From: Gammaproteobacteria bacterium
GTDB lineage: Bacteria > Pseudomonadota > Gammaproteobacteria > SZUA-140
NCBI GenBank assembly: GCA_020847075.1
Contig: JADLCS010000042.1
Coordinates: 1-64,000 of the forward strand
Direction: 5' to 3'
DNA length: 64,000 nucleotides
The translations under genes were made by a program, and so were the position numbers. Position 1 is the first letter of the stretch; each line of letters starts with the position of its first letter. Shown here one piece after another: positions 4,424 to 26,537 of this stretch. The notes beneath the pieces are model-generated. The model had not been told where the DNA came from and did no database searches. It saw only the letters and a list, made by a program, of their open reading frames with translations.

Positions 4424-6232
4424 ATGAGCCCGGAGAATCCGGACCTGATCCTGCCCGGCGAGGTGGATACCTTGTCCGGGCTGTTCTACGCGCGCGTCCG
4501 GCGCAGCCCGCACGCGCCGGCCTACCGGTATTTCGACGCGGACGGCGGGGAATGGCGCGAACTCTCCTGGGCCGGGGTCGCGGCGGAAGTGGAGCGCTGG
4601 CGCGCGGCCCTGCACGGCGAGGGGCTGAAATCCGGCGACCGCATCGCGGTCATGCTGCCGAACGGCGTCGATTGGGTGTGCGTGGATCAGGCGGCGCTGA
4701 GTCTCGGCCTGGTGGTGGCGCCTCTCTTCGTGAACGACCGGCCGGACAACGTCGCCTATATCCTGCGTGAAACCGGGGCGCGCCTGCTGTTGATCGATCG
4801 GCGCGAGCAGTGGGACGCGCTGCGCCCCGCCCTGGCCGCGTCCGCCTCCCTGACGCGGGTCGTGGTGCGTGAGGATGCCGATGGCGACGAGGCGCGGGTC
4901 ACGACGCTGGGGCGCTGGCTGGCCGCGGCGTCCGGTCCCGCCCCGGCGCGGGAGGAGGGACGCGGCCGCCGGGACGAGCTCGCCGCGATCGTGTTCACCT
5001 CCGGCACTGCGGGGCGCTCCAAGGGCGTGATGCTGACCCACGGCAACATCCTGTGGAACGCCCACGCCAGCTACTGCAGCAATCCGGTGAACGCCTCCGA
5101 TACCTTTCTGTCGTTTCTGCCGCTGTCCCATACCCTGGAACGCACCGTGGGCTATTACCTGCCCATGATGGCGAATGCCCGCGTGGCCTTCGCGCGTTCG
5201 GCCGCGCAGCTCGGCGAGGATCTGCTCGTGATCCGTCCCACGGCGCTGATCTCCGTGCCGCGGATCTACGAGCGGATCTATGGTCGGATCCAGGCGCAGA
5301 TGGAAGGGCGTTCTGCCCCGGCGCGCTGGCTGTTCCGCCGCGCGGTCGAGACCGGCTGGCTCCGTTTCCAGTATCTGCGGGGGCGGGCGGAATGGCGCCC
5401 CGCGCTGTTGTGGTGGCCGCTGTTGCGGCGGCTGGTGGCCGGCAAGGTGCTGGCCCGCTTCGGCGGCCGGATACGCATCGCGGTCTGCGGCGGCGCGCCG
5501 CTCTCCGCCGAGGTGGCGCGCACCTTCATCGGCCTGGGTCTGCCGCTGATCCAGGGCTATGGCCTGACCGAGGCCGGCCCTGTGCTGAGCGGCAACCGGC
5601 CGGAGGACAACGAGCCGGCGAGCGTGGGGCGCCCGCTGCGCGACGTCGAGATCCGGGTCACCGAACAGGGCGAACTGCTGGCGCGCAGCCCCGGCGTGAT
5701 GCCGGGCTACCTGAACGACGCCGCGGCGACCGCATGCACGCTCGACGCCGAGGGTTGGCTGCATACCGGCGACCGGGGGAAGATCGAAAACGGTTATATC
5801 TACATCACGGGGCGGCTGAAGGACATCATCGTGCTGTCCAATGGCGAGAAGGTCTCGCCGGTGGACATGGAGCTGGCGCTCGCCTCCGATCCGCTGTTCG
5901 AGCAGGTGCTGGTGGTGGGCGAGGGCCGGCCGTATCTGACCGCACTGCTGGTATTGAACCGCGAGCGCTGGTCCCTGCTGGCGCCGCGGCTGGGCGTGGC
6001 GCCGGAGGACCCGGATGCATTGCAGGCGCCGGCCGTGACGCGGGAGGTGGGGCGCAGGCTCGAGGCCCTGATGCGGGAGTTTCCCGGCTACGCGCGCATC
6101 CGGCGCTTCAGTCTGGGGCTCGATCCGTGGACGGTGGAGAACGGCCTGCAGACCCCGACGCTCAAGCTGCGCCGCCAGCGCATCGCGGAACAGGCGGACG
6201 CCGTGATCGAGCGTCTGTACGCGGGATATTGA
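4424..6232 (+). CDS. AMP-forming long-chain acyl-CoA synthetase
   Basis: A 602-residue ANL-superfamily ligase that activates a carboxylate (probably a fatty acid) to its CoA thioester through an acyl-adenylate. The P-loop-like motif IVFTSGTAGRSKG lies near residues 188-200, GYGLTEAGPVLSGN near 378-391, and the GWLHTGDRG and GRLKDIIVLSNGEKVSP hinge motifs follow. The start at 4424 is chosen because GGGAGAG sits just upstream and the family homology begins there; the frame stays open to 4331. One base separates it from the thioesterase, so the two are co-transcribed. Confidence 0.9.
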   Translation: MSPENPDLILPGEVDTLSGLFYARVRRSPHAPAYRYFDADGGEWRELSWAGVAAEVERWRAALHGEGLKSGDRIAVMLPNGVDWVCVDQAALSLGLVVAPLFVNDRPDNVAYILRETGARLLLIDRREQWDALRPALAASASLTRVVVREDADGDEARVTTLGRWLAAASGPAPAREEGRGRRDELAAIVFTSGTAGRSKGVMLTHGNILWNAHASYCSNPVNASDTFLSFLPLSHTLERTVGYYLPMMANARVAFARSAAQLGEDLLVIRPTALISVPRIYERIYGRIQAQMEGRSAPARWLFRRAVETGWLRFQYLRGRAEWRPALLWWPLLRRLVAGKVLARFGGRIRIAVCGGAPLSAEVARTFIGLGLPLIQGYGLTEAGPVLSGNRPEDNEPASVGRPLRDVEIRVTEQGELLARSPGVMPGYLNDAAATACTLDAEGWLHTGDRGKIENGYIYITGRLKDIIVLSNGEKVSPVDMELALASDPLFEQVLVVGEGRPYLTALLVLNRERWSLLAPRLGVAPEDPDALQAPAVTREVGRRLEALMREFPGYARIRRFSLGLDPWTVENGLQTPTLKLRRQRIAEQADAVIERLYAGY

Positions 6233-23648: not shown

Positions 23649-25022
23649 ATGAAGATAATCATCCTGGGGGCGGGACAGGTCGGCGCGTCCGTAGCGGAGA
23701 ACCTGGCGCGCGAGGCCAACGACATCACGGTGATCGATCACGACGCCAGGCGATTGCAGGACCTGCAGGACCGGCTCGATCTGCGCACCGTCCTCGGCCA
23801 GGCCTCCCACCCCGAGGTGCTGCGGCGCGCCGGGGCCGAGGACGCCGACATGATCATCGCGGTCACCAGCAGCGACGAGACCAACATGGTCGCCTGCCAG
23901 GTGGCCTACACCCTGTTCCATACCCCGACCAAGATCGCGCGCGTGCGCGCGCGCGACTATCTCGCCTATGCGCAGTTGTTCACCCAGGAGGCGCTGCCGA
24001 TCGACATGCTGATCAGCCCGGAGCAGGTGGTGATCGATCAGGTGCAGCGCCTGATCGAATATCCGGGCGCGCTGCAGGTGCTCGACTTCGCCGGCGGGCG
24101 CGTGCGCCTGGTGGCGGTGAAGGCCTATTACGGCGGGCCGCTGGTCGGGCACGAGCTGCGCGAGCTGCGGGAGCACATGCCCGGCATCAAGACGCGGGTC
24201 GCCGCGGTCTTTCGCCGCGGCGCCGCGATCATTCCCCAGGGCGATACGGTGATCGAGGTCGACGACGAGGTGTTCTTCATCGCGGCGACCGAGGATATCC
24301 GCGCGGTGATGGGCGAGCTGCGCCGGCTCGACAAGCCGATCCGGCGCATCGTCCTGGTCGGCGGCGGCAACATCGGCAAGGGACTGGCGCGGGCGTTGGA
24401 GAACCGCTATCAGGTCAAGCTCATCGAGCACGACACGGCGCGCGCGCAGGAGGTGTCGGGCGAGCTGGAGCGGACGCTGGTGCTGCGGGGCGACGCCGCC
24501 GACGAGGACCTGCTGGTCGAGGAGAACATCGAGGATACCGATGTGTTCTGCGCCGTCACCAACGACGACGAGGCGAACATCCTGTCCGCCATGCTCGCCA
24601 AGCGGCTCGGCGCGCGCAAGGTCATCTCGCTGATCAACCGTTCGGCCTACGTCGATCTGGTCGAGAGCGGCAACATCGACATCGCCATCTCGCCCCATCT
24701 CGCGACCATCGGCGGCCTGCTCGCCCACGTGCGCCGCGGCGACGTCGTGGTCGTGCATTCGCTGCGCCGCGGCGCCGCCGAGGCGATCGAGGCGGTGGCG
24801 CACGGCGACATCAAGTCCTCCAGCGTGGTGGGCCGCGCCGTGGAGGACGTCAAGCTCCCGCCCGGCACCACCATCGGGGCCATCGTGCGCGGCGACGAGG
24901 TGCTGATGGCGCACCACGACACGGTGATCGAGGCGGACGACCACGTCATCCTGTTCCTGGTCGATCGCACGCGGATCTCCGAGGTGGAACGCCTGTTCCA
25001 GGTCGGCGTCACCTTCTTCTAG
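23649..25022 (+). CDS. trkA: Trk potassium transport peripheral subunit TrkA
   Basis: A 457-residue cytoplasmic NAD-binding regulator of the Trk potassium channel. It holds two RCK halves: the first Rossmann motif [14 protein letters not shown] near 7-20, the second [14 protein letters not shown] near 238-251, each followed by a TrkA-C domain. It starts 53 bp after the regulator gene and precedes trkH by 69 bp. The gene is intact although its partner trkH is interrupted. Confidence 0.96.
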
Positions 25023-25091: not shown

Positions 25092-26537
25092 ATGCAACTG
25101 CGCGTCATCCAGCGCATAGTCGGCCTGCTGCTGACGCTGTTCGGCCTGACCCTGCTCGCGCCGCTGCTGTTCGCGTGGCGCGGGGGCGACGGCGCCCTGA
25201 ACGGTTTCGCACTCTCCTGCGCCGTCACCCTGATGTGCGGCCTGGCCCTGTGGCTGCCGGTGCGCGGGCTGCGCCTGGACCTGCGCCTGCGCGACGGTTT
25301 TCTGGTGGTGGTGCTGTCGTGGGTGACGCTCGCCCTGTTCGGGGCGCTGCCCTTTTTGTTCGGTCCGGGCCTGTCCTTCGGCGACGCGGTGTTCGAATCG
25401 CTCTCCGGGTTGACCACCACCGGCGCGACCGTGCTGAGCGGCCTGGACGGGCTGCCGGATTCGGTGCTGTATTACCGCCAGCAACTGCAATGGCTCGGCG
25501 GCATGGGCATCATCGTGCTGGCGGTGGCGATCCTGCCGATGCTCGGCATCGGCGGCATGCAATTGTTCCGCGTCGAGACGCCCGGACCGATGAAGGACAG
25601 CCAGCTTAGTCCGCGCGTCGCCGAGACGGCGAAGGCCCTGTGGTACATCTACCTCGGGCTGACCCTGTTTTGCGCGGGCGCGTACTGGATCTGCGGGATG
25701 ACGCTGTTCGACGCGGTCGGTCACAGCTTCTCCACCGTCTCGCTCGGCGGATTCTCCACGCACGACGCCAGTATCGGATACTTCGACAATCCGCTGATCG
25801 AGGACGTGGCGATCGTGTTCATGATCGTTTCGGGGGCGAATTTCGCGCTGCATTTCATCGCCTGGCGCGGCGCGGGCCTGCGGCCCTACACGCGCGATCC
25901 CGACTTCCGTACCTATCTCCTCGTGCTCACCGTCATGACGGCGGTCGCGACCTCGATCCTGTACGTCAGCGGCACCTTCCCCGCGTTCTCCGAATCCTTC
26001 CAGCGCGGCCTGTTCCAGGCGGTATCCATCGCGACCACCACCGGTTTCACCACCTCCGAATATCACCACTGGCCCTCGTTCCTGCCGCTGTTGCTCTTGA
26101 TGAGCAGTTTCATCGGCGGCTGCGCGGGCTCGGCCGGAGGCGGGTTGAAGGTGATCCGCGTCCTGTTGCTGATGCGCCAGGGGACGCGCGAGATCAAGCG
26201 GCTGGTGCACCCCAGCGCCTATTATCCGGTCAAGATCGGGAACTAGGCCCTGTCCAGCGAGGTCATAGACTCGATCTGGGGCTATTTCTCGCTCTACGTC
26301 GTGTGTTTCTGCGTCATGACTCTGCTGGTGGCGGCCACCGGGGTCGATCTCGTCACCGCGTTTTCCGCCGTGGCCGCCTGTGTCAACAACATGGGCGCGG
26401 GCCTCGGCGACGTCGGCGCGGATTTCGCCGGCCTGAACGCGGCCTCGAAGTGGGTGCTGTGCGTGGCCATGCTGCTCGGACGACTCGAGATGTTTACCCT
26501 GCTGGTACTGTTCACGCCCGCGTTCTGGCGCAAATGA
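25092..26537 (+). pseudogene. trkH: TrkH potassium channel subunit, interrupted by an in-frame TAG
   Basis: The 5' part encodes 384 residues beginning MQLRVIQRIVGLL, with pore loops LTTTGATV (about 107), STVSLGGFST (about 215) and ATTTGFTT (about 314). Codon 385 (26244-26246) is TAG. The same frame then continues for 96 codons to TGA at 26537: ALSSEVIDSIWGYF..., pore loop NNMGAGLG and LEMFTLLVLFTPAFW. Both parts align end to end with TrkH, and 481 codons in total equals the normal length. The TAG replaces an Arg in the conserved KIGNRAL-type stretch. The truncated product would lack the fourth pore loop. This is a nonsense mutation or a sequence error. Confidence 0.9.

Follow-up and report, generated by a model that had tools for sequence, protein, structure and literature searches.

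The trkA-trkH locus and its interior stop

The window analysed here is a 64,000-nucleotide stretch of a contig from a draft gammaproteobacterial genome (JADLCS010000042.1, assembly GCA_020847075.1), and it carries the gene order ntrY, ntrX, trkA, trkH, in which ntrX and trkA were named by profile and ntrY from its translation. The trkA gene (23649..25022, plus strand) is intact, as the preliminary description had held; its 457-aa product covers the NF007032 profile over positions 1-457 of 457, and at this full profile length the gene terminates in TAG (25020-25022). Directly downstream, the trkH frame opens with an ATG at 25092 and runs on the plus strand to an in-frame TAG at 26244-26246, which is codon 385. 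Beyond it the frame stays open through 96 conserved codons up to a terminal TGA at 26535-26537, without further damage, and this tail (26247..26537, plus strand) contains the fourth pore loop, NNMGAGLG. The position of the stop, the length of the tail and the presence of the loop had all been proposed from inspection of the window, and frame translation and profile searches bear them out.

With the stop translated as X, the trkH product covers positions 1-480 of the 483 in the NCBIfam profile NF008020, although its score of 603 lies below this closer equivalog's own cut-off of 866; against the TrkH family profile TIGR00933 it scores 352 bits and passes the cut-off of 331. The structurally solved TrkH of Vibrio parahaemolyticus (PDB 4j9u and 3pjz) aligns with it over 478 residues (E ~1e-172). 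As a side observation, gene callers would report a truncated TrkH here and leave the conserved tail unannotated.

In the alignment, residue 385 pairs with residue 389 of the Vibrio protein, a serine that has served as a marker for the TrkH-TrkA N2 interface (PMC6987127). Each TrkH protomer is built from four M1-P-M2 repeats, of which D3 and D4 are joined by a long intracellular loop (PMC6987127), and the position of residue 389 between the D3 and D4 sequences suggests that it sits in this loop. The premature TAG (26244-26246, plus strand) thus matches a site at the D3/D4 boundary and the TrkA interface. By frame translation and the Vibrio alignment, codons 1-384 together with the TAG (25092..26246, plus strand) specify pore repeats D1-D3 only, while the tail specifies the fourth, D4. 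The stop falls between pore repeats 3 and 4, so that a protein ending there lacks D4 and with it one of the pore's four parts. The likeness to Vibrio TrkH is otherwise extensive, in that the two proteins align end to end over residues 1-478, both have a TrkA partner, and the alignment implies the same four-repeat architecture here; the difference is the stop at the site equivalent to Ser389, with D4 lost.

The interrupted codon and the constraint on the tail

The preliminary description placed the stop where TrkH proteins have arginine in a GNRAL stretch. In our alignment of 108 homologues, lysine is instead the majority residue at this site (78 homologues, against Gln in 9, Arg in 8, a gap in 2 and other residues in the remainder), and it is found in 15 of the 17 readable members of the same taxonomic family. 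The sister species (JADLET010000119) reads GNKAL, and its Lys codon is separated from TAG by a single base change. None of the 108 homologues has a stop at the site, and the spread of residues indicates that the position is fairly tolerant, usually Lys. In a class-wide survey of TrkH proteins there were likewise no interior stops among the best-scoring matches listed, a set in which interrupted genes rank lower and from which the trkH studied here is itself absent, and this survey accordingly carries little weight.

The tail had been described as free of decay, and comparison with the sister species agrees. At the protein level the tail is 89.5% identical to that of the sister, as against 81.8% before the stop, and third-position divergence is equal on either side of the stop (26% and 27%). 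When the amino-acid differences were polarised against the family, only 2 of the 10 in the tail were assigned to this lineage, with 6 to the sister's and 2 unclear; before the stop the corresponding numbers were 29, 24 and 17. By this family-polarised comparison with the sister, amino-acid change in the tail is not elevated on this lineage, as it would be under relaxed constraint. The stop is therefore recent, or it is not real, or it is not effective.

Decoding of UAG and the frequency of interior stops

The stop would be ineffective if ribosomes read through it or a tRNA decoded it as an amino acid, giving full-length TrkH, and the conserved, intact tail beyond the stop speaks for such a reading. 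The machinery for it was not detected. The release factor 1 gene prfA is intact (540 bits; cut-off 423), and none of the 38 tRNAs detected in the draft, from which several standard tRNAs are missing, has a CUA anticodon; ARAGORN read 37 of these anticodons, and the last, in a gene cut by a contig end, was assigned by eye as that of a Glu tRNA (TTC). The search for UAG suppressor tRNAs that the preliminary description proposed thus returned none among the 38. In the sister genome a CUA anticodon is absent from the 30 tRNA loci read, of 37. The best match to the pyrrolysyl-tRNA synthetase PylS, within a 686-aa frame, reached 37.5 bits, far below the cut-off of 178. RNA 3' of the stop folds slightly better than shuffled sequence, as a readthrough-stimulating structure might, but the difference (z -1.6) is not significant.

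The contig that bears prfA (C10) also carries a tRNA-Sec gene with anticodon TCA, at 711-796 of the stretch searched, which bears on UGA only. The organism may accordingly make selenoproteins, and gene callers would truncate these at TGA.

Were UAG decoded as a rule, other conserved genes should be marked by it as well. We compared ~548 kb of this genome with ~1.25 Mb of the sister by homology (155 alignments, 52,609 codons). Apart from the TAG in trkH, these ~52,600 codons held no convincing interior stop; the other hits were judged from their translations, though not each checked separately, to be antisense frames or sequence preceding the start. The reverse comparison also gave one interior stop in the sister, again a TAG, in tgt. 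Lone interior stops thus occur at about one in 50,000 codons in each of the two samples, and both the trkH and the tgt stop are consistent with a low background rate of isolated nonsense changes or of base errors. Scans based on codon usage were set aside: one was empty and the other returned 81 places without trkH, the long ORFs used for training having probably included antisense frames.

The sister's tgt, which encodes tRNA-guanine transglycosylase, has its lone TAG on contig C5, at 5619-5621 of the stretch searched, on the minus strand in a frame that is otherwise intact, and this genome has Ser at that position. The two stops stand in place of different residues, Lys in trkH and Ser in tgt, and no common meaning of UAG can be drawn from them.

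These observations, together with the ordinary use of TAG to end the neighbouring trkA and the restriction of the trkH stop to this one genome, make readthrough or reassignment of UAG very improbable. A still slimmer chance attaches to low-level decoding, either by a near-cognate tRNA or by a suppressor tRNA whose gene lies in the tenth of the genome missing from the assembly, in which case the stop would control the dosage of one of the two TrkH channels. Least probable of all is a split channel, in which D1-D3 and D4 would be made as two polypeptides that assemble. The stop does fall between the two parts, as a split would have it, but the first in-frame ATG, GTG or TTG lies 19 codons past the stop and the first ATG 24 codons past it, where these start codons are probably already within the first helix of D4, and no relative is split. 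Restart of translation 3' of the stop was rejected likewise for want of a nearby start codon.

A second trkH and the origin of the stop

The preliminary description was concerned that a dead TrkH would leave trkA without a channel unless a second gene existed. The search it proposed for a second TrkH or TrkG provided an answer, in that an intact trkH, 53% identical to the interrupted gene and 84% identical to its sister orthologue, lies on another contig (C61, 54175-55485). By translation, genes near it include a Fur-family-like regulator and an ABC-transporter-ATPase-like gene, and no trkA was seen beside it. The trkA at 23649..25022 is the only close TrkA homologue that the search recovered from this genome, and neither Kup nor KdpA was detected in this 89.8%-complete draft. 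The arrangement recalls that of E. coli, where one TrkA is common to TrkG and TrkH (PMC9898762), for here too there are two TrkH-type genes and a single TrkA was found. It is plausible by this analogy that the second TrkH works with that TrkA. The E. coli system differs in that it also has Kup and Kdp, neither detected here, and in that one of the two trkH genes is interrupted here, and that the second TrkH uses this TrkA is itself deduced.

Of the three origins that had been suggested for the stop, readthrough is strongly disfavoured by the intact release factor 1, the lack of a CUA tRNA or PylS among the genes detected and the lack of a second convincing TAG, while a very recent mutation and a wrong base call both stand. 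The latter, whether a consensus base error or a collapse of strain variants in a metagenome assembly, would mean that trkH is intact in the living population, and we regard this as a serious contender, if one with the odds somewhat against it. The assembly is a draft of 101 contigs, the change is a single substitution in a gene with no other damage and with every relative intact, and the sister draft has a similar lone stop in tgt, a conserved gene. On the other hand, the rest of trkH looks right, and were every stop of this kind an error, their frequency of one per ~150 kb of coding sequence would require, as judged from a single event per genome, a substitution error rate well above that usual for short-read consensus.

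We favour, at a probability of roughly 0.57, an ordinary point mutation to a stop codon, of very recent date, in one of the two trkH genes, the truncated product of which is presumably non-functional. That the changed base is real we infer from the consensus of the draft assembly. Translation would then stop at codon 385 to give a protein with D1-D3 and without D4. Lacking its fourth repeat, this product presumably could not complete the fourfold pore, and the cell would depend for potassium uptake on the TrkH encoded on C61 and the single TrkA found, in the way that E. coli TrkG and TrkH use a common TrkA. Such a nonsense allele would be tolerable because a second TrkH is present, and the assignment of only 2 of the 10 tail differences to this lineage suggests that there has been no time for decay. 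Against this, the absence of decay is equally expected of a base error, and draft metagenome assemblies carry such errors.

In its features the gene resembles young pseudogenes made by a single nonsense change: an in-frame stop lies in a full-length homologous frame, the remainder is intact, a second copy is present, and the stop is confined to one genome, with relatives intact at the site. No difference from such pseudogenes was observed, the base here being known from the assembly consensus. As matters stand, the trkH stop is an ordinary observation of little wider weight, a recently arisen nonsense change in a transport gene that has a second copy. If the base is real, the locus would show an early stage at which one of the two TrkH paralogues is being lost.
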